From Candidatus Methanoperedens sp. (lineage in GTDB: Archaea > Halobacteriota > Methanosarcinia > Methanosarcinales > Methanoperedenaceae), in contig JAQUNZ010000022.1 of assembly GCA_028717345.1 (NCBI GenBank), forward strand, positions 1-34,845: a stretch of 34,845 bases of DNA. Direction: 5' to 3'. The position numbers were made by a program, and so were the translations under genes. Below the pieces are notes generated by a model. The model worked only from the letters and a program-made list of their open reading frames with translations, was not told the DNA's origin and did no database searches. Of this stretch, positions 7,123 through 23,614 are shown piece after piece (position 1 is the stretch's first letter; every line of letters begins with the position of its first letter).

Positions 7123-7839
7123 TTATATTTTACCTGTTCTTTTCAGCACAACAATTATTATTGCTCCAATTACCACGACAACAAACATTCCCAGAATTGA
7201 AGAGAATTCGAATGGAGGAGAAACTGCCTTGGTTGTTGTTCCATCTGTGACAGTTGTATCTTTGGCTTCTGGTGCTCCAGGAGCATTGGTTAATCCTTCG
7301 CCCTGCTTAGGAGTTGGGATTGGAGTTTTTTTATCGGATGTAGTTCCCAATCCTCCAGTGCTTGTTCCAGATGTGCCGGAGCTTGCATCAGATGTGCGAC
7401 CGTTGCCCCCAGTTCCAGTGCCACCATTTCCAGTTGGTGTCGATGTGGGGGTTGCAGTTCCAGTTGACGACGGAGCGTTAAGATTTACCACGGAAGTATT
7501 ACCAGCATCATTTGAATTATATGTGAATGCAGGTGATGGGGTTGCTTTAATGCCATTTACATAAAAGTCAACAGCTCCATTCGAACTTGCAGATACTGGA
7601 AGCCTGCCATTAGCGGTATCGCCATAACTTCCAGCAGTTAGAACGCTTGTGGCTCCAGCCGCGTTTCCTCCCACTTTTGCAGTTATAGTTGTGCCTGCTG
7701 GCGCAGGACTGCCATCAATATTGACAGTACCTTTCAAGATTACCGGTAAATTCGGTGGGTCTTGGGCGCTGACAATTCCAGCGGACAAAACGATCAAAGT
7801 ACAGATAAGTATTATATTAAATATTCTTTTATTTGACAA
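7123..7839 (-). CDS. Exported surface protein with Ig-like domain, Ser/Thr/Gly linker and C-terminal membrane anchor
   Basis: A 238-residue secreted protein. It has a signal peptide (about 1-26, ending near VSAQ) and a small beta-rich domain (about 30-120). That domain has the GTVNIDGSPAPAGTTITAKVGG and VDFYVNGIKA features of carboxypeptidase-regulatory or Ig-like folds. A low-complexity Ser/Thr/Gly/Pro linker (about 122-205) follows, then a C-terminal hydrophobic helix (about 212-232) with a basic tail, KRTGKI. The linker is a likely glycosylation region that lifts the domain off the membrane. The start is TTG at 7839, supported by AGGTGA six bases upstream. It lies downstream of the cohesin gene on the same strand, separated by a strong hairpin. 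It carries no cohesin or dockerin itself. No functional family recognised. Confidence 0.8.
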   Translation of the reverse strand: MSNKRIFNIILICTLIVLSAGIVSAQDPPNLPVILKGTVNIDGSPAPAGTTITAKVGGNAAGATSVLTAGSYGDTANGRLPVSASSNGAVDFYVNGIKATPSPAFTYNSNDAGNTSVVNLNAPSSTGTATPTSTPTGNGGTGTGGNGRTSDASSGTSGTSTGGLGTTSDKKTPIPTPKQGEGLTNAPGAPEAKDTTVTDGTTTKAVSPPFEFSSILGMFVVVVIGAIIIVVLKRTGKI

Positions 7840-7928: not shown

Positions 7929-9440
7929 CTACGGACTATATGCTGGCAAGGATGTATCTTGAGTTGCCCATACCCAGTAGCTTACTTTGGGCTGCATAGT
8001 GAAATTCACAGTTGATACATGTGTTGCACTATCTGGACCGCTCCACCCATTGACGCCTATTTTATCGTAGCTCTGTGTTGAAACATCGAAGTTCCAGATG
8101 CTGTAATAGCTCAGATCAATTGCTCCAAGCATTGTTTCAGCATTATTTGGATCAGTGCCAGAGGTTCCGATAAGGTTCCATCCTTTCTTCACATCGATGG
8201 ATGGAGGTACTGATGGTTGTCCGCTCTTGCGTACAAGATTGGTTATGTCCTGCGATGTATTCATGTGTATCAGGTAACCCTTCAGTGGTTCGAAATTCGT
8301 CACTCCACCAACATAGACCTTATTAACCGGGTCAAAGCCGAAAAGCCCATCATACTGAATTCCTTTCGTTACGTTGGCCACGGTTGAGTTTTCCAGCTGG
8401 TAGGGTACCGAAATGAACTTCCACGATATTGTTCTGCTCGGTTGTGGGGGCGGTAGCGTTGTTCCTGTTTCAACGATCACCTGTCCATCATCCATTATCA
8501 CTCCAGGTATTGTGTCTGCAGAAGCGTTTGTAAGCTTCGCCATGGTCAGATCTAAATTCGATGTTCCATTTGGAGCGTTGCTCTTTACCTTGAAGGTTAG
8601 AGTTGCAAAGGTTCCATTTGCTGTTTTAGCTGAATCAGTACCAGCAATAGTATATCCAAGCTCCAATATACCATTGGTGTTGTCAATAGTATTATTGAAC
8701 AGTATCGGACTGCTTCCCAGGAAGGTTCCTGGAACAGCGCTGTTAAGATTGACAACTGATTTATCAAAGTTCAGTTTTATCTGGACTCCCATGACAGCTT
8801 GACCTGCAGGATAGACTACAACATTTACGCTGAAAGTATCGGTACGGTTGACAGTCTTCGATGATGGTTCAATCCGAACTGTGGAAGAAGTGATTCCACC
8901 TCCGCCGTCACCATTGCTCGGAGCAGACAAAACTGTAACTGTTCCGTCGTTTATTGTAACTCCAGCTATTGGGTCTGCAGAAGCGTCTGTAAGCTTCGCC
9001 ATGGTCAGATCTAAATTCGAGGTTCCATTTGGAGCGTCGCTCCTTACCGTGAAGGTAAGAGTTGCAAAGGTTCCCTTTACTGATTTGGCAGAATCACCAC
9101 CTGCTATATTATATGCAAGTTCCAATTTACCATTGGTGTTGTCAATAGTATTATTGAACAGTATCGGACTGTTTCCCAGGAAGGTTCCTGGAACAGCGCT
9201 GTTAAGATTGACAACTGATTTATCAAAGTTCAGTTTTATCTGGACTCCCATGACAGCTTGACCTGCAGGGTCAACTACAACATTTACGCTGAAAGTATCG
9301 GTACGGTTGACACTTTTTGATGACGGTTCGATGCTTACTGATGCTGCCTGGACAACTCCTATACTGATTGTGGTGAGTACACAAAATATTAAAAAAGGAA
9401 TGGTGAGGTTTCCCACCATCCTTGAGATTTTGGTTTTCAT
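7929..9440 (-). CDS. Secreted protein with two tandem cohesin domains
   Basis: A 503-residue exported protein. A signal peptide (about 1-33, ending VVQAA) is followed by two cohesin-type domains at about 34-171 and 187-324. Each opens with V-IEPSSK-VNRTDTFSVNVVV and contains the characteristic GVQIKLNFDKSVVNL strand pair, GTFATLTFxV and a closing D-G-V-V strand. The two are roughly 85 percent identical. A Pro-rich linker leads to a C-terminal domain (about 337-503) rich in Trp and Gly (WKFISVPYQL, KGWNLIGTSG, YWVWA). This resembles repeat modules of other archaeal surface proteins. No membrane anchor is visible. Cohesins bind dockerins, and the gene immediately upstream on the same strand, 30 bp away, encodes a dockerin, so the pair probably dock. 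GAGGTATC precedes the ATG by about 6 bp. Confidence 0.87.
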   Translation of the reverse strand: MKTKISRMVGNLTIPFLIFCVLTTISIGVVQAASVSIEPSSKSVNRTDTFSVNVVVDPAGQAVMGVQIKLNFDKSVVNLNSAVPGTFLGNSPILFNNTIDNTNGKLELAYNIAGGDSAKSVKGTFATLTFTVRSDAPNGTSNLDLTMAKLTDASADPIAGVTINDGTVTVLSAPSNGDGGGGITSSTVRIEPSSKTVNRTDTFSVNVVVYPAGQAVMGVQIKLNFDKSVVNLNSAVPGTFLGSSPILFNNTIDNTNGILELGYTIAGTDSAKTANGTFATLTFKVKSNAPNGTSNLDLTMAKLTNASADTIPGVIMDDGQVIVETGTTLPPPQPSRTISWKFISVPYQLENSTVANVTKGIQYDGLFGFDPVNKVYVGGVTNFEPLKGYLIHMNTSQDITNLVRKSGQPSVPPSIDVKKGWNLIGTSGTDPNNAETMLGAIDLSYYSIWNFDVSTQSYDKIGVNGWSGPDSATHVSTVNFTMQPKVSYWVWATQDTSLPAYSP

Positions 9441-9470
9441 TGTTGATACCTCATTTGATTTTGTGTTGTC

Positions 9471-12400
9471 TTATGTACAAACCTTGCCCCAGTTAAGGAT
9501 CAATTTTGATGCATCCCCGATGTCCACAATACCATCACTATTGAGATCTGCGGCACTGTCGCTAGTTCCCCATTTGAGGATCAATTTTGATGCATCCCCG
9601 ATGTCCACAGTACCATCACCATTGAGATCCACAGTCTTTCCATTCGGAAGTGTGCATGTCCCTGGTTGTGGCCCTGGTCCTGAGGGATCTGATACATTCC
9701 TCTGATTGTAGATCTCCTTGAGCTGTCCCTGGAACCTTGGCTCTTTAGCTTCCAGTCCATAGGTTATAACCAATGGTCTTGCTGGAATCTTTTCGCCTAT
9801 CTTGTCCTGCATACTGGCAGGCTTCGCCTGCGCAGTCAGTACATCCACAATGATTTCATGTGGCATGTTGAAAGGCGGCAATTCCGGCAATACCTCTCCA
9901 GTGTTCCAGACTTTGAGATGCTTGCCGTAGAGCTTGATATCGTCTTTGGGCAGCTTCTGCCTGATCACTATGTACTTGAACTGTTCTACTCCGCTGACAA
10001 CTCTGGTCTTTATTGCGACTACGTTATAGAATACTTCGTCCACGATGAAAGCCTTCTGGTTCCATCTGGCATTATCTCCTATATTAGCGAGGGTCTGACC
10101 GAACATCCTTCCTACCTCGACCACTGCTTCCTTGGTGCCAGTATCCACAGCGATCAGTTTGATATAGAAAGGTCCGCTATTATCAGCCATTCCTCTCTTG
10201 TATTTCGCAACCTGTCCGACGTTCAATACCTGGTCGTTGGCGCAGTTCTGTGAACCTCCGCCTTCATTGTCACAGACGTTGTAAACGATGCTTGCCGGAT
10301 TCGTGTAAACTGTGCTAAGTTTCACTTTGTTATCAAAGAACTGTAACTCGTCATTGGCTGCAAGTCTCTTGTTGTCAAGTACGAGTACGATGCTTTCATC
10401 ACCGCTCACATCTTTACCATCTGTGTCCATTGATGACAGTTTTCCGTCGTTGTCTATGTCCATGCCAAGGGTCTTTTCGCTTTCCACTCTTACCGCATCT
10501 TTTACACTCTTATTTGCGGCATCAAAGCTGTTGATTCCACGGTATGGATTATTTGCCTGGTGTGCCATCGGTATCAGGATATGACTGCCGCTCTTCACCA
10601 TTATGGGCATCCTGATATCGTTCAGTGTCATGTAGGCAAATTCCTGCTCGATCGCAGGGGCATATGTATCTCCAATGCTCGGGTCATTATTCTGCTCCCT
10701 GATCCTGTGTCCTATTGCCAGATGGTCATGGATGGCCTTTTCGTCATCAAGCGGAAGTGTTGTGACATATGCGCAGGTCGTTTGGGTATCTAATGGTTTG
10801 CATGCTTCGATAACAACATCCCAGCGTCCATTGGCTTGCGTCAGGTAATCGTCTTTAAACCATGCTTTCTCATACCACATTCGCTTAAAGGTCTTTTCCT
10901 GCGGTCTCTGGACTGTGTTGCCATTTGCCGGGTCAAGGAATATCAATTCCTGCCAGCCCTGGTTATGGTCCATTATAGCCGGGTTGAATGTGACAAAGTC
11001 CTTCCTCGGCGACTGCCTGGACTGCGGATAGAATGGTGCTTCCGGATCTGTGTACGGTGCTTGTTCCGGTTTCTTTTGTGTCACCGGATCTATCGCAGCC
11101 AGATCGCCAGCCCCTTCATCAAAGTAGCCATACAGTCTCAATTTTCCATCATTGATGTACAATCCAGTTCCAATTGATGCATCATGCCAGAATTTCAGGC
11201 GGTCTCCATGATTGACGACCGGCTTCTCAGTTGCGTTTCCATCCCAGATGTGAGTCGCTGCTTCAGGTGCCCGGAATCCGGTTGTTACCAGATATTTCTG
11301 GCCCAATGGCAGCACGAACTCTGTGTACTGGAAAGGCATTGTATTGAACCATTCTACCACCCAGGCTTCCTTATTTGGTGTCTGGTTGTAGATCTCCTTG
11401 AGTTCGCCAACGAATCTCTTTTCTTTGGCTTCTCTTACATACCTGATTTCCAGTGGTGGTACTTCAACTTTATTTCCGATCTTTGCCTTGTCCTGCGTCT
11501 CTAATACATCCACAATGATCTCGTGTGGCATATTGAAAGGCGGCAATTCCGGCAATACCTCTCCAGCCTTCCAGACCTTGAGATGCTTGCCGTAGAGCTT
11601 GATATCGTCTTTGGGCAGCTTCTGCCTGATCACTACATACTTGAACTGTTCTACCCCGTTGACAACTCTTGTCTTTAATGCGACCACGTTATAGAAGACT
11701 TCGTCCACAATGAAACCCTTCTGGTTCCATCTGGCGTTTTCCCCTATATTCGCGAGGGTCTGACCGAACATCCTTCCTACCTCAATTACTGCTTCCTTGG
11801 TGGTTGTGTCCACGGCGATCAGTTTGATATAGAAAGGTCCTCTGTTATCAATCATTCCTCTCTGGTACTTCGCGACCTGTCCGACGTTCAATACCTGGAC
11901 ATTGGCGCAGTTCTGTGAGCCACCGCCTTCATTGTCACAGACATTGTATTCGATGCTCGCTGGATTCGTTAATACTGTGTTAAGTTTCACTTTGTTATCA
12001 AAGAATTGTAACGTGTCATTGGCTGCAAGTCTCTTGTTGTCAAGTACGAGTACGATGCTTTCATCACCGCTCACATCTTTTCCATCTGTGTCCATTGATG
12101 ACAGTTTTCCATCGTTGTCTATGTCCATGCCAAGGGTCTTTTCACTTTCTACCCGTACCGCATCTTTAACATTCTTATTTGCGGCATCAAAACTGTTAAT
12201 TCCCCTGTATGGATTATTTACCTGGTGTGCCATTGGTATCAGGATATGGCTGCCATTCTTTACCATTATAGGCATCCTGACATCGTTCAGTGTCATGTAG
12301 GCAAATTCCTGCTCGATCGCCGGCGCATATGTATCACCGAGGTTCGGGTCATTGTTCTGCTCCCTGATCCTGTTGCCAGCCATTAACTGATCATTGATGG

Positions 12401-13607
12401 CATTTTCATCATCAAGCGGAATCGTCGTGACATACTGGCAAGTCTTGGCAGGATCTAATGGTTTGCATGCTTCGATAACAACGTCCCAGCGTCCATTGGC
12501 TTTTACCTGGTAATCATCTTTGAACCATGCTTTCTCATACCACATTCTCTTGAAGGTCTTTTCCTGCGGTCTCTGGATATTGTTGCCAAAATTCGGACTT
12601 GAAATATTCGGATCAAGGAATATCAATTCCTGCCAGCCCTGGTTATGATCCATTATAGCCGGGTTGAATGTGACAAAGTCCTTCCTCGGCGACTGTCTGG
12701 ACTGCGGATAGAATGGTGATACGGGATCTGTGTATGGCGCTTGTTCCGGCTTCTTTTGTGTTACCGGATCAATAGCAGTAAGGTTTCCAGGCCCTTTGTC
12801 GAAATAGCCGTAAAGTTTCAATGTTGTTTGAGATGGAATTTGAACAGCAGATTCAGTGTTCATATCTCTAATGCCATTTACATACAGGTCGTCGATTATG
12901 GTTGAATTATGCCAGAATTTCAGGCGGTCTCCTTTGTTGACCCCTATTGGAGTGGATAGACCATCCCAGATAAGTGTCTTCGCTTCAGGTGCATAGAATC
13001 CGCTTGTTACAAGATAATTCTGGTCTCTTGGCAAATTGAACTGTGTGTACTGCCACGGCATTGTGTTGAACCATTCCACGTTCCAGAATTCATCACCTGG
13101 AGGTGTTTTTTGTGGAATGAACCGCAATTCAAATGTTGTGTCTGCTTCAATAGAGATCTCATTACCGGTTACATCCTGTGCCATCAGATTCAGAGTATAT
13201 CTTGTACCATTAGGATCGGTTGGGGTTCCTGCAAATGTAACCCTGATCGCATTAGCTATTGTTTGCGGATCTGAAGATACAGATATCGGACTCTTCAGGA
13301 TAGTTAATTGGATTTTATCTTTATTGCAATTTGTATTGTATGGTACCGGATTACCATTCCAGCATTCAAAATATGATTGAGCACCATGACCATCCACACC
13401 TATTATGAACTGGTGAGGCAATGCAGGCGGAATTATTATGCCGCTTATCTCTATTCCCAATTCCACAGGTACGGAAGGATTCAAAATGGTAGGATTACCT
13501 CCTTTAATATTGATATTTGCCGGACTTGCCGTTGCTATTCCTGATAGCAATATCATTACTAATAAAACTACAGTAATATCTGCTATCACAAACCTTTTCT
13601 TTTTCAT
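9471..13607 (-). CDS. Giant exported S-layer-like protein, two near-identical halves plus C-terminal dockerin
   Basis: A 1378-residue exported protein. The ATG at 13607 is preceded by GGGAGGT and opens MKKKRF plus a hydrophobic signal segment ending near ATASP; a longer reading frame exists but lacks support. After an N-terminal beta-rich region (about 25-160) come two homologous halves of about 560 residues. Each begins with VEWFNTMPxQYT and ends with ELKEIYNQ. Each half contains a Ca-binding-like stretch (GMDIDNDGKLSSMDTDGKDV) and the QLPKDDIKLYGKHLKVW-type segment near its end. The last 55 residues are a type I-like dockerin: two DLNxDGxVDIGDASKLILxWG motifs, each with the Asp/Asn calcium loop. 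There is no C-terminal anchor. It is first of three surface genes and has a leader of over 130 nt. I infer a structural surface-layer component; the family of the large repeat is not certain. Confidence 0.85.
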   Translation of the reverse strand: MKKKRFVIADITVVLLVMILLSGIATASPANINIKGGNPTILNPSVPVELGIEISGIIIPPALPHQFIIGVDGHGAQSYFECWNGNPVPYNTNCNKDKIQLTILKSPISVSSDPQTIANAIRVTFAGTPTDPNGTRYTLNLMAQDVTGNEISIEADTTFELRFIPQKTPPGDEFWNVEWFNTMPWQYTQFNLPRDQNYLVTSGFYAPEAKTLIWDGLSTPIGVNKGDRLKFWHNSTIIDDLYVNGIRDMNTESAVQIPSQTTLKLYGYFDKGPGNLTAIDPVTQKKPEQAPYTDPVSPFYPQSRQSPRKDFVTFNPAIMDHNQGWQELIFLDPNISSPNFGNNIQRPQEKTFKRMWYEKAWFKDDYQVKANGRWDVVIEACKPLDPAKTCQYVTTIPLDDENAINDQLMAGNRIREQNNDPNLGDTYAPAIEQEFAYMTLNDVRMPIMVKNGSHILIPMAHQVNNPYRGINSFDAANKNVKDAVRVESEKTLGMDIDNDGKLSSMDTDGKDVSGDESIVLVLDNKRLAANDTLQFFDNKVKLNTVLTNPASIEYNVCDNEGGGSQNCANVQVLNVGQVAKYQRGMIDNRGPFYIKLIAVDTTTKEAVIEVGRMFGQTLANIGENARWNQKGFIVDEVFYNVVALKTRVVNGVEQFKYVVIRQKLPKDDIKLYGKHLKVWKAGEVLPELPPFNMPHEIIVDVLETQDKAKIGNKVEVPPLEIRYVREAKEKRFVGELKEIYNQTPNKEAWVVEWFNTMPFQYTEFVLPLGQKYLVTTGFRAPEAATHIWDGNATEKPVVNHGDRLKFWHDASIGTGLYINDGKLRLYGYFDEGAGDLAAIDPVTQKKPEQAPYTDPEAPFYPQSRQSPRKDFVTFNPAIMDHNQGWQELIFLDPANGNTVQRPQEKTFKRMWYEKAWFKDDYLTQANGRWDVVIEACKPLDTQTTCAYVTTLPLDDEKAIHDHLAIGHRIREQNNDPSIGDTYAPAIEQEFAYMTLNDIRMPIMVKSGSHILIPMAHQANNPYRGINSFDAANKSVKDAVRVESEKTLGMDIDNDGKLSSMDTDGKDVSGDESIVLVLDNKRLAANDELQFFDNKVKLSTVYTNPASIVYNVCDNEGGGSQNCANDQVLNVGQVAKYKRGMADNSGPFYIKLIAVDTGTKEAVVEVGRMFGQTLANIGDNARWNQKAFIVDEVFYNVVAIKTRVVSGVEQFKYIVIRQKLPKDDIKLYGKHLKVWNTGEVLPELPPFNMPHEIIVDVLTAQAKPASMQDKIGEKIPARPLVITYGLEAKEPRFQGQLKEIYNQRNVSDPSGPGPQPGTCTLPNGKTVDLNGDGTVDIGDASKLILKWGTSDSAADLNSDGIVDIGDASKLILNWGKVCT
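9483..9630 (-). repeat. Duplicated dockerin calcium-loop motif
   Basis: Two nearly identical segments of about 55 bp (around 9490-9546 and 9570-9626) each encode DLNxDGxVDIGDASKLIL followed by a Trp-Gly pair. This is the usual two-helix duplicated architecture of a dockerin. The symmetric IGDASK residues of both copies could give two cohesin-binding orientations. Confidence 0.85.
9704..13092 (-). repeat. Two intragenic direct repeats of about 1.7 kb
   Basis: The segment of about 13092-11385 is repeated at about 11373-9704 in the same frame. Long blocks are almost unchanged at DNA level, for example around 10330-10480 against 11990-12140. Differences cluster near the start of each half, where the first copy has an extra stretch containing YVNGIRDMNTESAVQIPS. 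Confidence 0.9.
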
Positions 13608-13997
13608 TTCATACCTCCCATATTTTATTTCTATTTCAGACGAAAAACTGTTAAAGCGCAATGGTATTTGCGATAGGATCACAAAACCAAACTCCACCTC
13701 GCTTCATACCACGATTCCCGTCTGTTGTTTCTAACTAATAACCGCTCCACATTTTGAACGATGTTAGTTACCAATATTTATTACTGAAAAACTATATGTA
13801 GGAATAAGTAGCCACATCATATGACCAAAACAAATGCTGCGAGCATGTGTTTCAAACACATTGCAGGAGTCATTTTTCCGAATTTCAGAAAACCTATTCT
13901 ATTCCATCCACAGGTAAAAAGCATATGTCAGAAGCATATAACGCCCATACATGGTAGATTATATAGACATAATAAGTAACAGTATAACAGGTGAGAC
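13608..13997. promoter_or_regulatory. Divergent control region, S-layer/dockerin gene and winged-helix gene
   Basis: About 390 bp without a gene I can support. On the minus strand a TATA-like catatag near 13790-13797 would give a 5' leader of over 130 nt before the S-layer/dockerin start. That leader holds an inverted repeat, TAACTAA (13732-13738) and TTAGTTA (13764-13770). Right of it lies the palindrome at 13845-13861. On the plus strand a TATA-like gattatatag lies near 13956-13965 ahead of the gene at 13998, which has AGGTGA 5-6 bp before its ATG. Confidence 0.5.
13845..13861. promoter_or_regulatory. 17-bp palindrome, candidate operator (copy 1)
   Basis: ATGTGTTTCAAACACAT reads as two perfect 7-base arms (ATGTGTT / AACACAT) around TCA. 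The same arms recur at 14547-14563 upstream of the paralogous gene pair. It lies between divergent transcription units, as expected for a dimeric winged-helix regulator site. Confidence 0.5.
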
Positions 13998-14198
13998 ATG
14001 GACTTTATTGACAGGATACTTAAGCATCTCATGGATTCAAAATGGCATAGCATTGAAGAAATAGAAAAGGATATTTCTGAACAACCTTGGCACAAAATCC
14101 ATCATACTCTTCACTTCCTAAATGAACTGGAATTTGTAAATATTCAAAACAACAGGATTATACTAACATCTAAAGGATTCAAATTAATGGAACTTTAA
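13998..14198 (+). CDS. Small winged-helix protein, copy A
   Basis: A 66-residue protein of minimal winged-helix appearance. It has a helix (MDFIDRILKHLMDSKWHSIEE), a second and third helix ending in HKIHHTLHFLNELEFV, and a beta-wing with NRIILTSKGFKLMEL at the end. It is paralogous to the protein at 14649-14849, sharing DSKWH-IEE, the I-K/L-T-KG and the LEL ending. AGGTGA lies just before the ATG. Its stop codon overlaps the stop of the convergent gene 14195-14476. Probably a DNA-binding regulator, but no target is known. Confidence 0.7.
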   Translation: MDFIDRILKHLMDSKWHSIEEIEKDISEQPWHKIHHTLHFLNELEFVNIQNNRIILTSKGFKLMEL

Positions 14199-14476
14199 GT
14201 CTGATCAAGAACATCTTCGACATCCTTCAATTTATTCAATAATTCCGATCCCCTGTTTGTGAGCTCAAAGCATTCTTCATCGTTGCACAAAAATCCATCG
14301 TTTAAAAGATATTCAAAATAGCGGTTAAACGTTCTCCAGTCAAGGTAAGCTTTTTGCATCAAACGTGTCTTTTTCACTTTCCTGTCTTCTTGTATTGCTA
14401 TGAGTATATCCCTTATTATTTCCCACCTTCCCCTTCCTTTCTTTAAAGGAATTGAAGAGCCTGTGTTCTTGTCCAT
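14195..14476 (-). CDS. Winged-helix regulator of archaeal ArnR1/Sso10a-like type, copy A
   Basis: A protein of about 93 residues with RGRWEIIRDILIAIQED, KTRLMQKAYLDWRTFNRYFEYLLNDGFL and a wing ending ELTNRGSELLNKL. The order (RWEIIRDIL, K-KTR-M-KA-L, YLxxLxxxGL, LTxxG) is that of small archaeal winged helices with a C-terminal helix that can dimerise as a coiled coil. The ATG at 14476 is preferred; a TTG at 14491 would add five residues. TTTTATAG on the minus strand near 14520-14527 could be its TATA box, allowing a short or absent leader. Its paralogue is at 14846-15109. It is convergent with, and overlaps by 4 bp, the gene at 13998. Confidence 0.75.
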   Translation of the reverse strand: MDKNTGSSIPLKKGRGRWEIIRDILIAIQEDRKVKKTRLMQKAYLDWRTFNRYFEYLLNDGFLCNDEECFELTNRGSELLNKLKDVEDVLDQT

Positions 14477-14546
14477 AAATGTAAATATCAACTTTTGTGA
14501 TAATTGTTTTGTTACTATCCTATAAAAGAAGTAAAGGAGTCAGCCC

Positions 14547-14648: not shown

Positions 14649-14849
14649 ATGAAAGAAATTGACAGGGTCATGGAGCAGATCAAGGATTCAAAATGGCATG
14701 GGATCGAAGAGATGAAACAGAATAACATATCAGAAAAAAACTTAACAAAAAGAATAAATTTTCTTGCAGAGCAGGGATTGATTATTATCAAGAATGAAAA
14801 AATCAAGATAACCCAAAAAGGACTCATGTTTCTGGAACTTCCTGTTTAA
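14649..14849 (+). CDS. Small winged-helix protein, copy B
   Basis: A 66-residue paralogue of the protein at 13998-14198. It has MKEIDRVMEQIKDSKWHGIEE, then KNLTKRINFLAEQGLI and a wing KIKITQKGLMFLELPV. The frame is open back to 14547, but that longer start would run through the palindrome and the promoter. The ATG at 14649 aligns with copy A. A TATA-like attttaaatac lies near 14599-14609. Its end overlaps the convergent copy B regulator by 4 bp, exactly as in copy A. Likely DNA binding; role unknown. Confidence 0.7.
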   Translation: MKEIDRVMEQIKDSKWHGIEEMKQNNISEKNLTKRINFLAEQGLIIIKNEKIKITQKGLMFLELPV

Positions 14850-15109
14850 GCGATCACGTCTTCAAGTTCCTTTAATTTCTTAATAAAAGAGTTACCCTTG
14901 TCTGTGATTCGATAGTATTCTTCATCGCTTCCATTGGGTTTGTATTTTGTTATTAATCCTTCATCATTCAGATAATCAAAATATCTGTTAAAAGTTCTCC
15001 AATCAAGGTAAGCCTTTTGAAGTATGCGTGTTTTTTTTACTTTATTATCGCCCATAGTAGCTTTAAGTATATCCCTTATTATTTCCCACCTATTCCTCTC
15101 CTGTTTCAT
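14846..15109 (-). CDS. Winged-helix regulator of archaeal ArnR1/Sso10a-like type, copy B
   Basis: An 87-residue paralogue of 14195-14476, sharing RWEIIRDIL, the VKKTR-LQKAYLDWRTFNRYF block nearly unchanged and a YRITDKGNSFIKKLKELEDV wing and helix. AGGAGTGTT precedes the ATG, so the start is well supported. A TATA-like tatatac on the minus strand lies near 15160-15168, and a degenerate version of the palindromes above overlaps it (15166-15182). Convergent with copy B of the small winged-helix gene, sharing 4 bp. Confidence 0.77.
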   Translation of the reverse strand: MKQERNRWEIIRDILKATMGDNKVKKTRILQKAYLDWRTFNRYFDYLNDEGLITKYKPNGSDEEYYRITDKGNSFIKKLKELEDVIA

Positions 15110-16278: not shown

Positions 16279-17397
16279 ATGCCTGTCAAACAAAAAGAAC
16301 CACTTATTATGCACCCGCGTCCCAGTTCGATTGTGGCTGCGCTATACACCCTTAGAGACCTTGATACCGATGTCGTGATACTTCACGGTCCACCGGGCTG
16401 CAGTTTCAAACACGCGCGGCTTCTTGAAGAGGACGGGATGAGAGTCGTCACTACATCTCTTGATGAATCTGGCTTTGTATTCGGGGGGCACGATGCGCTT
16501 GTAGAGGTGCTCGAGAAAGTGATCAAACGGTTTAACCCTAAACGGATAGGCATCGTTGGAACCTGTGCTTCCATGATAATCGGGGAGGAACTTCATGAGG
16601 CTGTTATGGATGTACAGCCAGATGTTCCTGTTATCGAAGTAGAGGTACATGCAGGTTACAGGGACAACACCAAAGGAGTAATCATCGCCCTTGAATCAGC
16701 GCTTGCATCAGGCATAATCAGCGAAACTGAGTTCGAGAGGCAGAAATCTCTTCTTAAGGAAGCCACGATGGTCGAAAAGCGCCACGGAGCCGCAAGCAAG
16801 GAGTATCTCGAACCAAGCAGAGGGGATTTGAAATATAAGGTGGCAGAAAGGCTTATTGAATTAATAAAGAATGGTAAAAAGGGTATTAACATCCTCAACG
16901 CCAAGAAAGAAACAGCTTTTATGTTCGCAGATATAAACCTTGCAGTAGCGCAGGTGGCGGAAAAAATGGGCAAAAGCTCCAATATCATTAATATGGCGAA
17001 CCTTGATGAGAAACTGGGGCTTCCCAAGAACAGGAGGAACGCCCGCGAGGTCAAAGACGATCTTGAGAAGGCAGGGATGAGAATACATCATGTCATCGGA
17101 GGACTGGATGAGTATCCCATTGCCGGGATTACTGCCAGCCAGATAATCGGCGAAAAATATACAGATTTCGATTTTGCAGTAATTACAGGCGTGCCTCATG
17201 CGCTTCCTATGGACAATTTAAAGGATATGGAATTATTCTCTATTACCAATGGTCCTCGCCAGGTAGTGCCCTTAAAAGAGATGGGGCATAAGCATGTCGT
17301 GGTCGAGATAGACCTGCATCCCAAGACGCTTGGAGTGAATCACATCGTAGAGTCGGAGTTTGGCGCGACTCTGAGGGAGCTTGCAAAAGATGCCTAA
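16279..17397 (+). CDS. cfbD: Ni-sirohydrochlorin a,c-diamide reductive cyclase, NifD-like subunit
   Basis: The nitrogenase-like catalytic component of coenzyme F430 synthesis. With CfbC it carries out the ATP-driven six-electron reduction and ring closure of Ni-sirohydrochlorin a,c-diamide to seco-F430. The 372-residue protein is short for a NifD relative, as CfbD is. It shows [14 protein letters not shown] (Cys41) and [14 protein letters not shown] (Cys96), candidate ligands for the intersubunit Fe-S cluster, plus [17 protein letters not shown] at the end. GGTGA precedes the ATG by about 5 bp. It overlaps cfbC by 8 bp. Its presence implies methyl-coenzyme M reductase elsewhere in the genome. 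Confidence 0.93.
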
Positions 17398-18181
17398 GCA
17401 GATAGCGATCTATGGAAAAGGCGGTATCGGGAAATCAAGCACAGCCTCCAACGTAGCGGCAGCATGCGCCGACGAGGGTTACCGTGTCACGATAATAGGA
17501 TGCGACCCAAAGAGCGACTCATCCATAACGCTTCTTCGTGGCAGGCGCATCCCTACTATTATGGACCTGATGCGGGAGGGTGAGGACATAAAGGAAGAAG
17601 ATATCGTTTTTTCCGGGTACAAAGGGGTAAAATGCGTGGAGATCGGGGGTCCTGAACCCGGAATCGGCTGCGCAGGCAGAGGGATAATAGTTGCTATCGG
17701 GCTCCTCAGGAAAATTTCAACAGCAATAGAGGATACAGACCTTGTTATTTATGATGTTCCCGGTGATATCGTATGCGGCGGGTTCGTTGCTCCGGTCAAG
17801 AAAGGACTGGTGAACGAGGCGTACGTGCTCACATCGGGTGAGTACATGCCGCTTTATGCAGCCAACAACATTTGCAAAGGGCTTTCCCGGCTTGAGATGA
17901 CGCTCAACGGGGTTATCTGCAACTCGCGGGGCGCGCCCAATGAAGAAAAGATAGTGAGCGAATTCGCAAAAGAGATAGGGAGCCAGTTGCTTGCCTTTAT
18001 TCCAAAAGATGTTCTTGTCCAGACATGCGAAAGGGATGGATTTTCAGTTATTGAAAAGGCGCCGGATTCAGCCATTGCCGGGGTTTACAGGAAACTTGCG
18101 AAAGCGATAATGGCTGAAAAGAGTGCTAAGATTGCTGTGCCACTTTCTGATGCACGGCTTAGAGAACTGACCAGGATTTAA
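17390..18181 (+). CDS. cfbC: Ni-sirohydrochlorin a,c-diamide reductive cyclase, NifH-like subunit
   Basis: The Fe-protein partner of CfbD, delivering electrons with ATP hydrolysis. The 263-residue protein has the deviant Walker [10 protein letters not shown] (about 9-17), GCDPKSDS, the first cluster cysteine in GIGCAGRG (about Cys94) and the second in [11 protein letters not shown] (about Cys129), all NifH features; these bind the homodimer's [4Fe-4S] cluster. The ATG at 17390 is preferred over a TTG at 17381; GAGGGAG lies about 10 bp upstream. It overlaps cfbD by 8 bp. Its stop codon lies inside the left 13-bp repeat that starts the defence cassette. Confidence 0.94.
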
Positions 18182-18755: not shown

Positions 18756-20075
18756 ATGCCAAGAACAATAACTCTTTTTGAACACCAAAAATGCAGCTAT
18801 AAGTATTTAATGGAGAGATACGGATTTCAAAAAGAGCATCGGTCAATTTTGAAAAAGCTTTATGGGGATAAAAAAATATTCTATTTCTTAGATGATGCTT
18901 TTGTGGCCACCGAACAGGTAGGCATAGTCCGCGCTGGAGATTTTTCAATCGAAATTCTTCCCAAGATTGATATGACCGGCAAAGCAGATGCCATAGATGC
19001 AGAATCCGTGAATTCAGCGCGAACAAACCTTCTTGTCCTGCTCAGATATGCGTTTGATTTAAAAGCATACGAAAATGAAATCGCAGCAATGCATAAAAAG
19101 CCTGCTGATTGGTTTGAAATCCTGACTTTTTTGTATGCAAAAAACCTGCAAGAAGCGTTAAAGCGTGGAATTTTTCGAAATTACATAACTTATGAGGAAA
19201 ATTTAGGCGTTCTTAAAGGAAAATGGCTGATCTCACAACATCTCAAAATTAATCGTTTTCAAAAACATCGGTTTTATGTTCAATATGATGAATTCAGCCC
19301 GGATAATCTTTTGAATCAAGTTTTGAAGCATGCGGCAATCCAGATGAGATGCCGGTCAATGTATGCCAGCAACCGCCAGCAATTAGCCATGCTTTCTGAC
19401 TGGATGGATGAAGTTATCCTTCCTTCTGCCCTGAATAATGCTGTTTTAGAGCAGATAATCTTTACAAGGTTGAACGAAAGATTCCGTCCTCTTTTCAATC
19501 TAGCAAAGCTTTTTCTGGAACATCAAGCCACTGAGACCAAAGTGGGAGCTACCAGTGCCTTTGCCTATACTTTTGACATGAATAAATTGTTTGAGAAATT
19601 TATTGCGAGGTTCATTCAAGAACATAGAGGGAGAATATTGGGAGGAACTGGATATGAGCATTGTGCAATACTGGAACAAGCAATTGGGGATCGAAGATGG
19701 ATTGCAAAGGATGCAAATAAAAAGAATATCTTTCAAATGAAACCTGACATCATATTTAAAGATGGCCAGAATGGAAATGTGTCTCTAGTTATCGATACTA
19801 AATATAAAATTCTAGACGGTGAAGATAGAAAAATGGGCATTTCACAAGAAGATATGTATCAGGCAGCAGTCTATGCTCAGGTTTACCACTGCCGGAGAGT
19901 TGTTTTGATATATCCACAAGTGGATAATATTGCGCCAATACAAAAGAACTTTAAATTGAATGGATTAGACGCCAGTGTTGAGGTAAGAACAGTGAATTTA
20001 AGTATAGACTTGCCTAAAGAAGTATTTAAAATCATAAATGAGTTAAATAAGATCGTTGCTGGAAAAAATACGTAA
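18756..20075 (+). CDS. mcrC: McrC-type nuclease subunit of a McrBC modification-dependent restriction system
   Basis: The 439-residue protein has an N-terminal McrC domain (VGIVRAGDFSIEILPKID, LLVLLRYAFDLK) and a C-terminal PD-(D/E)xK nuclease. The nuclease core is MKPDIIF (about Asp331) and VIDTKYK (about Asp347 and Lys349), with the helix QEDMYQAAVYAQVY after it. McrC joins the McrB GTPase ring and cuts DNA carrying modified cytosine or other modified bases. It lies before mcrB, the reverse of the usual mcrB-mcrC order. No Shine-Dalgarno is obvious at the ATG; an AT palindrome just upstream may be part of a promoter. Codon use and base composition are AT-richer than in the flanking cfb genes, consistent with transfer. 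Confidence 0.9.
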   Translation: MPRTITLFEHQKCSYKYLMERYGFQKEHRSILKKLYGDKKIFYFLDDAFVATEQVGIVRAGDFSIEILPKIDMTGKADAIDAESVNSARTNLLVLLRYAFDLKAYENEIAAMHKKPADWFEILTFLYAKNLQEALKRGIFRNYITYEENLGVLKGKWLISQHLKINRFQKHRFYVQYDEFSPDNLLNQVLKHAAIQMRCRSMYASNRQQLAMLSDWMDEVILPSALNNAVLEQIIFTRLNERFRPLFNLAKLFLEHQATETKVGATSAFAYTFDMNKLFEKFIARFIQEHRGRILGGTGYEHCAILEQAIGDRRWIAKDANKKNIFQMKPDIIFKDGQNGNVSLVIDTKYKILDGEDRKMGISQEDMYQAAVYAQVYHCRRVVLIYPQVDNIAPIQKNFKLNGLDASVEVRTVNLSIDLPKEVFKIINELNKIVAGKNT

Positions 20076-20127
20076 CAATTAATGAAGGAATAATAAAATT
20101 GAAGCCAAATAAAAAGGAAGTTAAGAA

Positions 20128-22107
20128 ATGACTGGGGGAAATGCTGGAATAAGATATTGGAAGATTTCACCTGGAAAAGGAGCAGAGAATTGGGAAGTAT
20201 GTAGAGATAATAATATTATATCAATCGGGTGGAATGAAACAGAAGATTGGAGAAAAACCAAATTTGGTGATTTGACAACAAATACCGATAATGAAAAAAT
20301 AAAAATGGTTTTAAAGAACTATTATCCGAAATTTAATTCTATGGAAATAGGACAATCGTCAGCTATTATCAGGCTATTTTTAGAAATAAAACCTGGAGAT
20401 AAGGTCGTTGTTTATGATAAAAATTACCATATAAACGCTATGTGTAAAGTTATTGGTGAATATGAGTTTGAAGAAGATTATGATTATCCACATACTAAAA
20501 AAGTTGAGTGGATAAAAATTTTTAGTCCCCCTTTTGATATTAGACCGATTAAACTTGATACAAAAATGGGGGTTCCTAAAACGGTTATTAAAATGACAGA
20601 AAGAGATTGGAATGCCATCTATAACTATGCTATTAGGAACGGTGAAACTGAAGAAAAGGAAAAAAAGGAAGAAGAGGTAGATATGGATAATCCACATGAA
20701 AATCTAAACGTAATTCTCTACGGTCCACCCGGAACAGGTAAAACTTATGAAACCCCAAACAAAGCCCTTGAAATTATCCATAAAGATAATAATTATTGCT
20801 CCGGTAAAGAAAGGCGAGAACTTGTGCAGGAATTTAATAAACTTCTTGAAAAAAAACAAATCAAGTTTATAACTTTTCATCAGTCTTATTCATATGAGGA
20901 TTTTATTGAAGGTATTAGGCCAGAAAGTAAACCTAACGGTTCAATTGAATATCCTGTTAAAGATGGTCTTTTTAAGCAAATGTGTTTTGAGGCAGCTTAT
21001 GAATTAATCAAGGATCAAATCGAAAACAAAGACATATCCTTTGAATTAGCATTTAAACAATTTACTGACAAATTTAATGATCAAAAGCTTAATGATCAAA
21101 AGTTTTTATTAAAAACAAAGAACGATAAACCAGTTGAAATAATTTCAATTGAAGACAATGTTCGAATTAAAATTGAAAACGGTAATGAATATCCCGTATC
21201 TATTGCTCCACTTAGAGAAGTTTTCCAAAAATGGGATCAAATAGAAAAAGTCGATGACGTTTGGGAAAAATTAAAAGTCGGAGGTGGTGTTGAAAGTTAT
21301 GTATATGCGATAGTTGCTTATCTTAAAGATTTGAGCAGCAAGATACAAAATAATAATGACTCAGATATAGGATATGAAGCTAAAAAAGCGCATGTTTTGG
21401 GCAAATTATCTTTAGATAATTTTAGAACAAAATCTGGGGAGCCGCATGTTCTTATTATAGACGAAATCAATCGTGGAAATATCTCTAAAATATTTGGCGA
21501 ACTTATCACGCTGGTAGAAGACGACAAAAGACTGGGGGCTGAGAATGAGCTTACTGCAACGCTTCCTTACTCTAAAGAAAGATTTGGTGTTCCTTCTAAT
21601 CTTTACATTATCGGTACAATGAACACAGCAGATCGTTCCATTGCCCTATTGGATATTGCTTTGCGCCGCAGGTTCACCTTCGAAGAAATGATGCCTAAAC
21701 CTGAGCTACTCGATGGAATCTCAATCAATGGGATTAATTTAGCAGAATTACTTGAAAATCTCAATAATCGAATAACAGCACTGATAGATCGAGATCACCA
21801 AATTGGACACAGTTACTTTTTGAACCTTAAAGGACTGGAACCTGAAGATGCAAAAAACAATTTAGTTTCAATATGGTACAAGAAAATTATACCGCTTCTA
21901 CAGGAATATTTCTATAATGATTGGGAGCGTCTATCTTTAGTTTTGAATGAAGGATTCATTTTGAAGGAAGATAATCCATTTCAGGGAGATTACTCATGCA
22001 GCTATGTTTATAGAATCAAACCATACGACCAAGAGGAATTCAAACATAATTTAGAATCCATTATGTCAGAGGCACAAAATGACAATGATGAAAAATCAAT
22101 GGAATAA
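20128..22107 (+). CDS. mcrB: McrB-type AAA+ GTPase with N-terminal EVE/PUA-like modified-base reader
   Basis: A 659-residue motor and recognition subunit. The N-terminal part (about 8-165) has YWKISPGKGAENWEVCRDNN, IISIGWNE, LEIKPGDKVVVYDKNY and WNAIYNYA, which resembles EVE/PUA-like domains reported on other McrB homologues to read modified bases. A charged linker (about 172-186) leads to the AAA+ domain. This has Walker A GPPGTGKT (199-206), Walker B VLIIDEINRG (441-450), the McrB signature GTMNTADRSI (496-505) and an arginine-rich ALRRRFTF. GGAAG precedes the ATG by about 8 bp. It lies 52 bp after mcrC. The modified base that is recognised cannot be deduced. AT-rich like mcrC. Confidence 0.9.
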   Translation: MTGGNAGIRYWKISPGKGAENWEVCRDNNIISIGWNETEDWRKTKFGDLTTNTDNEKIKMVLKNYYPKFNSMEIGQSSAIIRLFLEIKPGDKVVVYDKNYHINAMCKVIGEYEFEEDYDYPHTKKVEWIKIFSPPFDIRPIKLDTKMGVPKTVIKMTERDWNAIYNYAIRNGETEEKEKKEEEVDMDNPHENLNVILYGPPGTGKTYETPNKALEIIHKDNNYCSGKERRELVQEFNKLLEKKQIKFITFHQSYSYEDFIEGIRPESKPNGSIEYPVKDGLFKQMCFEAAYELIKDQIENKDISFELAFKQFTDKFNDQKLNDQKFLLKTKNDKPVEIISIEDNVRIKIENGNEYPVSIAPLREVFQKWDQIEKVDDVWEKLKVGGGVESYVYAIVAYLKDLSSKIQNNNDSDIGYEAKKAHVLGKLSLDNFRTKSGEPHVLIIDEINRGNISKIFGELITLVEDDKRLGAENELTATLPYSKERFGVPSNLYIIGTMNTADRSIALLDIALRRRFTFEEMMPKPELLDGISINGINLAELLENLNNRITALIDRDHQIGHSYFLNLKGLEPEDAKNNLVSIWYKKIIPLLQEYFYNDWERLSLVLNEGFILKEDNPFQGDYSCSYVYRIKPYDQEEFKHNLESIMSEAQNDNDEKSME

Positions 22108-22186: not shown

Positions 22187-23614
22187 ATGACAGAAAAACT
22201 AGACATCCCCCGCATCCTTATAGCAGGCGACCGCTCCTCAGCGGGAAAGACCACCATTTCTATCGGTATAATGTCTGTACTGCGCGACAAGGGGTATAAA
22301 GTGCAGCCATTCAAGGTCGGGCTTGACTTTATCGATCCGAGCTACCACACAGAAGTAACTGGCAGGTACTCGCGCAATCTTGACGGATATCTGATGTCGG
22401 AGCAGGCTGTCAGTGAAGTTTATTCACATGCTATTGAGGGAGCAGATATCTCAATTATTGAAGGTGTTCGCGGACTTTATGAGGGGCTTTCTGCCACAAG
22501 CGATGTCGGTAGCACGGCGCAGATAGCAAAATTGCTGGACTGCCCTGTTATCCTTGTCATCAATGCAAGGAGCATCACGCGAAGCACGGCTGCGCTTGTT
22601 TCGGGTTATAAATCATTTGACCCTGAAGTTAATATCGTTGGAGTGATACTGAATAACATCGGCAGCAGCAGGCATGCTGATAAAGCAAGGGAAGCCATTG
22701 AGACTTATACTGGCACTCCCGTTATCGGCGAGATACCGCGCAACGACTCCATGAAGATCTCAATGAGGCATCTTGGTCTTATCCCTGCTCTTGAAGGGAG
22801 GCGAAGGCTTGCTGGTTTTGATGATAATCTCGTAAAGATAAAGGACATAATCAGGGAAGGTATCGATATCGACAGGCTGGTAACACTCGCCCGCACGGCA
22901 AAGCCGCTGAAGGCGCCTCAGGAAAATATCTTCAAACCTGCATTTGCTGGGAATAATGTCAGAATTGGCGTGGCGCTTGATGAAGCCTTCAATTTCTACT
23001 ACCGCGACAATCTTGATCTGCTTGAACTTGCAGGCGCAGAGCTTGTTTATTTCAGTCCTGTCAACGACAGCGCTCTCCCTCAGGTCGATGGTCTGTATAT
23101 TGGCGGCGGCTACCCTGAATTATTCGCTCGGGAGCTTGAGAATAATGAGAATATGAGGGAGTCTGTTCGCCAGGCTTCATCAGAAGGATTACCCATATAT
23201 GCGGAATGCGGCGGGCTCATGTATCTTACTCAGGAGATAAAGACAGATGTTTCAGGGACTGGTAAACATACCATGGCAGAGATGGAAGGTGGGACATTTC
23301 GCATGGCAGGCGCATTACCGGGAAGGACGCTGATGGGTCATAAGCGAGTGGTTAGCTATAATGTCGGAAATTTTGTGATCGACAATATCATCGGGAAAGC
23401 AGGGGCTTCATTCATCGGGCATGAATTCCACCATTCAGAGATAGTGGATATCCCCGAAAATACTGCATTTGCAATAAGGCTTGACAGGGGAACAGGCATC
23501 AGGGGCGAGCTTGATGGTATTCTGGTTGAGAATACAATGGCAGCCTATGCTCATCTGCATGCTGCATCTTATACAGAGTTTGCCAGGTCGTTCGTTGGGT
23601 TCTGCAGAAAGTGA
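22187..23614 (+). CDS. cfbB: Ni-sirohydrochlorin a,c-diamide synthase
   Basis: A 475-residue CbiA/CobB-type amidotransferase that uses ATP and glutamine to amidate the a and c side chains of Ni-sirohydrochlorin, the step before CfbCD. The N-terminal ATPase domain has GDRSSAGKTT (14-23), KVGLDFIDPSYH and GVRGLYEG (93-100). The C-terminal class I glutaminase domain has IGGGYPELFA, the nucleophile in IYAECGGLMYL (about Cys341) and a GHEFHHSE motif. I call CfbB rather than the cobalamin enzyme CbiA because cfbC and cfbD are nearby. No Shine-Dalgarno precedes the ATG; the AT-rich stretch 22138-22180 may carry a separate promoter after the cassette. Confidence 0.88.
   Translation: MTEKLDIPRILIAGDRSSAGKTTISIGIMSVLRDKGYKVQPFKVGLDFIDPSYHTEVTGRYSRNLDGYLMSEQAVSEVYSHAIEGADISIIEGVRGLYEGLSATSDVGSTAQIAKLLDCPVILVINARSITRSTAALVSGYKSFDPEVNIVGVILNNIGSSRHADKAREAIETYTGTPVIGEIPRNDSMKISMRHLGLIPALEGRRRLAGFDDNLVKIKDIIREGIDIDRLVTLARTAKPLKAPQENIFKPAFAGNNVRIGVALDEAFNFYYRDNLDLLELAGAELVYFSPVNDSALPQVDGLYIGGGYPELFARELENNENMRESVRQASSEGLPIYAECGGLMYLTQEIKTDVSGTGKHTMAEMEGGTFRMAGALPGRTLMGHKRVVSYNVGNFVIDNIIGKAGASFIGHEFHHSEIVDIPENTAFAIRLDRGTGIRGELDGILVENTMAAYAHLHAASYTEFARSFVGFCRK

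Follow-up and report, generated by a model that had tools for sequence, protein, structure and literature searches.

In a 34,845-nucleotide stretch of DNA from Candidatus Methanoperedens sp. (assembly GCA_028717345.1, contig JAQUNZ010000022.1, positions 1 to 34,845, hereafter the window) three consecutive genes on the minus strand were identified which encode proteins of 1378, 503 and 238 amino acids, all predicted to be exported by a signal peptide (Table 1). The first is a large repeat protein, here called the SL protein, which ends in a dockerin; the second carries two tandem cohesins followed by a conserved tail domain; and the third, ORF3, ends in a clear transmembrane helix. We propose, with a probability of about 0.75, that these genes form a surface-assembly cassette in which the dockerin-cohesin pair joins the large protein to the tail and ORF3 provides the anchoring. 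The metagenome-assembled genome (MAG) from which the window derives has 2.54 Mb, is 96% complete and belongs to the same genus as Ca. Methanoperedens BLZ2.

Scored by itself with profile PF00404, the dockerin reached 26.7 bits, and the genome scan gave it 24.4 bits; both values exceed the Pfam cut-off of 22.9. Inside the whole 1378-residue protein it scored 18.9 bits, which is under that cut-off. Its two motifs are identical at 18 of 21 positions, and the four calcium-loop aspartates are invariant across 19 related dockerins. The cohesins (PF00963, 110.5 bits for two copies against a cut-off of 24.1) are 83% identical to each other, and in their predicted fold they match solved type-I cohesins (TM-score 0.82, Foldseek probability 1.00) as well as the Archaeoglobus fulgidus cohesin 2xdh (TM-score 0.78); sequence searches of the PDB added nothing beyond the domain names. 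An earlier note, made from the letters of this DNA alone, had described an exported 1378-residue protein with a C-terminal two-motif dockerin, whose coordinates it gave correctly, and an adjoining gene with two tandem cohesins, and both descriptions agree with these scores. It had also seen no membrane anchor, which is true of the SL and cohesin proteins, as both have N-terminal signal peptides only, and no obvious catalytic domain, which is true in the window, although in one relative the dockerin and cohesin partners bear redox domains.

Exactly one dockerin was counted in the window genome, with the Pfam profile and also with a custom profile built from the 19 related dockerins, so the possibility of many further dockerins was rejected. 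The count, which the earlier note had proposed as a check, therefore excludes, for this 96%-complete MAG, a host of unlinked dockerins that match these cohesins better. There are three cohesins in the genome, two in the 503-residue protein and one on another contig (C11), and the sole dockerin gene of these 2.5 Mb lies directly upstream of the sole two-cohesin gene. Scanning 84,980 species genomes yielded 28 loci, to which regions from relatives were added. The SL protein with a dockerin was found in 18 genomes, and in every one of them its gene is followed directly, on the same strand and at a distance of -23 to 115 bp, by a gene with one to three cohesins. An ORF3 homologue follows the cohesin gene in all 14 loci with enough sequence. 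The genomes with the cassette include METP1, LFW-24, BLZ2, GoM-Arc1 GB37, several Methanolobus species and an ANME-2 (anaerobic methanotrophic archaea) MAG. A few loci are in MAGs labelled bacterial or other (CSSED10-310, Thermoplasmata AUK221), which may reflect transfer or misbinning.

ORF3 is, from its predicted helix and conserved place, a probable membrane-anchored member of the cassette. The window copy matches the archaeosortase signal PFE-CTERM only below the cut-off (E-value 0.097), and the GB37 homologue passes PF18204 (PGF-CTERM) with 29.2 bits.

One indication that dockerin and cohesins belong together comes from the way in which they vary. Among the Methanoperedens loci, the SL repeats place the window with LFW-24 and METP1 (74-83% identity) and BLZ2 apart (51-57%), and the tails place the window with LFW-24 and BLZ2 (76-83%) and METP1 apart (52-58%). 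Dockerins and cohesins alike separate the window and LFW-24 from METP1 and BLZ2, with 74-81% identity within the two types and 24-36% across them. By these groupings the repeats, the tails and the dockerin-cohesin set differ in their histories. METP1 and the window share 79% identity in the SL repeat but have dockerins only 26% and cohesins only 36% identical; along the sequence, the drop from about 80% to 30% comes where the repeat ends. Over 16 loci, dockerin distances correlate with cohesin distances (r=0.90), and the correlation is still 0.77 given the distances of SL repeat and tail, a value that none of 5000 permutations reached (0/5000). Lock and key appear, then, to have been exchanged together within Methanoperedens; since the dockerin and the cohesins are back to back across the gene boundary, one recombination event can swap both. 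An assembly artefact in METP1 is an unlikely source of its swapped modules, the same dockerin and cohesin type being found independently in BLZ2 on a 97-kb contig, with the caveat that the METP1 cohesin gene ends at a contig edge.

A second line of evidence is a form of the system without the joint. In five loci (Methanoxibalbensis L077 and Methanophagales L085, L081, L084 and L087), two of them ANME-1-type, the SL protein is without a dockerin, and the tail domain forms its C-terminus. The SL-borne tail and the tail of the cohesin protein were matched by hhalign with a probability of 99.0% (E-value 3.7e-18), against 0.2% for a control with the ORF3 domain. A C-terminal PGF-type anchor is encoded by the gene after the SL-tail gene in L081 and L085 and by the second gene along in L077. 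Because the tail is fused to the SL protein in these loci, the dockerin-cohesin joint would connect parts that elsewhere are one chain, and on this comparison it is a predicted stand-in for a covalent link. As to the identity of the tail domain, the sole Pfam match, Ntox22, was below the cut-off (E-value 0.0066) and was disregarded.

Taken at sequence level, these observations indicate that the dockerin and the neighbouring cohesins probably form a genuine cognate joint within a surface assembly. The dockerin of the SL protein would bind, in a calcium-dependent manner, a cohesin of the neighbouring 503-residue protein; the two near-identical cohesins would hold two SL copies or, in relatives, another dockerin protein, and would join them to the tail domain. 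ORF3, being membrane-anchored, would probably tie the assembly to the cell, placing it in or on the envelope. We infer binding from this indirect evidence and from the precedent of A. fulgidus, which has the same gene arrangement.

Several points weigh against this proposal. The dockerin and cohesins are contiguous in the DNA, and one recombination tract could yield their co-variation with no selection for matching, although exchange as a single tract still implies that they move together as matching partners. The tail domain, present in 52 of 100 relatives, is common, so the argument from fusion is not unique to this pair, which weakens it but does not remove it. When dockerin, linker and cohesin 1 were run through AlphaFold2 as a single chain, with the TAA stop read as a residue, both domains were folded well and the predicted template-modelling score (pTM) of 0.61 was about that of two independent domains, a value that does not confirm docking. 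The third cohesin, on contig C11, could also be a partner of the dockerin. This last point leads to a very unlikely alternative in which the two genes are neighbours only, the dockerin binding another cohesin such as that on C11 and the twin cohesins binding other dockerins or being vestigial. In the C11 protein the single cohesin is indeed accompanied by a PGF-pre-PGF domain, with a transmembrane helix at the C-terminus, and the Methanolobus loci have a similar extra single-cohesin gene upstream, whose copy in M. vulcani B1d ends in a membrane helix. The MAG, however, has no second dockerin for the twin cohesins to bind, and the co-variation and conserved adjacency favour the neighbouring gene.

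The earlier note had suggested a snap-together pair used for the cell surface rather than for the breakdown of plant fibre, and this is supported by the single dockerin, the closely similar cohesins and the conserved adjacency, and further by the co-variation and by the loci in which the two halves are one polypeptide. A cellulosome role was rejected on the same dockerin count and on the absence of any enzyme or carbohydrate-binding domain from either partner. A stronger form of the note's suggestion, with the SL protein as a genuine lattice protein of the S-layer and the twin cohesins as its cross-links, we consider distinctly unlikely. The SL protein is indeed exported, large and tandemly repeated, and its repeat family is also present in four genomes, ANME-1-type included, with no detected S-layer protein of family PF07752 (DUF1608). 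The label "S-layer-like" nevertheless found no support: the repeat showed no detectable similarity to the genome's own PF07752 domains (hhalign probability 0.1%), none of 15 aligned copies matched a Pfam family, and the all-beta AlphaFold2 model of R2, which is usable (Table 1), found no fold match in the PDB. PF07752 proteins were detected on other contigs of the window genome, a positive control for the profile, and all 13 relatives tested likewise carry their own. Of 100 related genomes 14 have the repeat family, as do 4 of 31 within the genus, the window genome included; the family is therefore not the general S-layer of Methanoperedens. The picture may differ for the dockerin-less form, as in four of the genomes with that form (L077, L085, L081 and L087), whose completeness is not established, no PF07752 S-layer protein was found, and the repeat family is a candidate surface-layer protein in ANME-1-type and related groups with no identified S-layer.

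In two other Methanoperedens genomes the same joint carries redox domains. The SL protein of METP1 has a cytochrome-c domain (Pfam Cytochrome_CBB3) just ahead of the dockerin, and the cohesin protein of this genome has a CxxCH motif and a cupredoxin domain. In LFW-24 the SL protein has a cytochrome-c domain, and so does a second dockerin protein, which is unlinked and whose dockerin shares 84% identity with that of the window. A 1368-residue METP1 protein (contig C51, L089:1-4104) combines cupredoxin, a GSDH/PQQ-type dehydrogenase, CHRD, SdrD_B, a cohesin and the same tail; the protein stops at a contig edge that the cassette contig shares. These combinations suggest that the joint can mount electron-transfer domains. 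One could go further and take it as mainly a display platform for redox and other domains in extracellular electron transfer, with the SL protein as one cargo, a reading that the METP1 and LFW-24 proteins favour and that we regard as rather unlikely. No such redox domain or heme motif was found in the window, BLZ2, GB37 or Methanolobus loci, the heme motif of the METP1 SL protein is an unusual CASASCH, and the loading of these domains with heme or copper is putative.

Table 1. Positions in the window of the three genes and of their domains and repeats (pLDDT, predicted local distance difference test)
Feature	Position	Strand	Remarks
SL protein, 1378 aa, exported: signal peptide, N-terminal region, two repeats of ~550 aa (unnamed all-beta family), C-terminal dockerin	9471..13607	-	
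Repeat unit R1, residues 173-742	11382..13091	-	459/549 residues identical to R2
Repeat unit R2, residues 747-1302	9702..11369	-	AlphaFold2 pLDDT 69.6, pTM 0.76
Dockerin, residues 1317-1378	9474..9659	-	EF-hand-like motifs at 9567-9629 and 9486-9548; Cys near each module end
Cohesin protein, 503 aa, exported: signal peptide, cohesin 1, cohesin 2, GWNLI-type tail domain	7929..9440	-	
Cohesin 1	8931..9344	-	AlphaFold2 pLDDT about 97; type-I cohesin fold
Cohesin 2	8472..8882	-	112/134 residues identical to cohesin 1
Tail domain, two GWN(L/F)I half-repeats	7938..8432	-	Conserved; in dockerin-less loci fused to SL protein
ORF3, 238 aa: signal peptide, conserved domain of ~100 aa, Ser/Thr/Gly-rich stalk, C-terminal transmembrane helix (residues 214-232)	7123..7839	-	

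The gene for the SL protein starts at the ATG at 13607, with GGAGGT immediately 5' of it; the GTG at 13697, which gives a longer open reading frame, is a less likely start. A gap of 30 bp (9441-9470), equal to 10 codons, lies between the stop of the SL gene and the start of the cohesin gene, so that the two genes are in frame. Readthrough of the stop was rejected because a normal signal peptide with a start codon of its own comes after the 10 codons, and it is also disfavoured by the gap being out of frame in most relatives.

Immediately upstream of the cassette, on the same strand, are two paralogous genes (14195-14491 and 14846-15109) encoding DNA-binding proteins of the Sso10a family. Elsewhere in the window the McrC and McrB restriction genes (18756-22107) are placed between the F430-cofactor genes CfbD/CfbC (16279-18181) and CfbB (22187-23614).

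Other arrangements of these modules were also seen. The dockerin of the LFW-24 SL protein (L048:13000-13743) has collapsed to a single motif, and the unlinked LFW-24 protein (L047) retains the two-motif form. BLZ2 (contig C59, L091) and LFW-24 (contig C123, L092) have a second pair of cohesin and dockerin genes, in which a cohesin-cohesin-dockerin protein of 628 amino acids, possibly able to chain, is encoded by a gene overlapping a single-cohesin gene. In an Anaerolineae MAG (L067:1848-7976) repeat, dockerin and cohesin are present in a single chain of 2042 amino acids.

The role of archaeal dockerins and cohesins outside cellulosomes has been a standing question since A. fulgidus in 1999. 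The neighbouring A. fulgidus proteins AF2375 and AF2376 were reportedly the subject of work by Bayer in 1999 and by Voronov-Goldman in 2011. AF2375, with a C-terminal dockerin, and AF2376, with an N-terminal cohesin, are reported to bind strongly and specifically (PMC9705933), and the pair was used in that study and in PMC6394049. Since such archaeal neighbours are already known, the locus described here is a variant of a known arrangement, sharing with it the order of a C-terminal dockerin and then an N-terminal cohesin in adjacent genes, the absence of a cellulosome and, as noted for 2xdh, the cohesin fold. It differs in having the dockerin on a large protein whose repeats are of an unnamed family, two cohesins and a tail domain in the partner, and a third, anchored member in the set; it is moreover conserved across several families, with exchange of its lock-and-key part. 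The scan of the 84,980 genomes with the repeat family returned no A. fulgidus locus.

Extracellular dockerin and cohesin proteins are likewise on record for ANME archaea: Chadwick et al. (2022, PMC9012536) place proteins with S-layer domains and dockerins in most ANME-2c genomes, and Timmers et al. (2017, PMC5244752) report few dockerin and cohesin domains in ANME-2d. The ANME-2c proteins use PF07752 S-layer domains, of which the SL protein of the window has none, and the accessible parts of both papers do not describe the cassette, the evidence for pairing, the joined form or the redox versions. No description of the cassette was found in the literature searched, which covered few subscription journals. 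With the clostridial cellulosome the locus shares the two module families, a type-I-like cohesin fold and an internally symmetric dockerin; unlike it, the window's two proteins have no glycoside hydrolases or carbohydrate-binding modules that we could find, and the genome as a whole is limited to its one dockerin and three cohesins.

For the Methanosarcinales we tentatively draw a wider picture, possible although on balance doubtful, of a modular, non-covalent surface assembly built on an undescribed repeat family. In it the dockerin-cohesin pair would replace a polypeptide bond that is intact in ANME-1-type relatives, lock and key would be exchanged as a cassette, redox domains would be mounted in some Methanoperedens, and the family might be the missing surface-layer protein of ANME-1-type genomes that lack PF07752. 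More narrowly, the locus offers a concrete, conserved case, with a predicted partner, for the role of dockerins and cohesins in archaea. It comes with a matched control in the joined form and with natural swaps of specificity between the window/LFW-24 and METP1/BLZ2 types, which makes it testable with small purified domains, and its presence in cultured Methanolobus species, among them M. vulcani and M. profundi, makes study possible outside the uncultured methane oxidisers. If the redox domains of METP1 and LFW-24 are indeed displayed at the surface, the joint would be a candidate means of fixing electron-transfer parts to archaeal cells.

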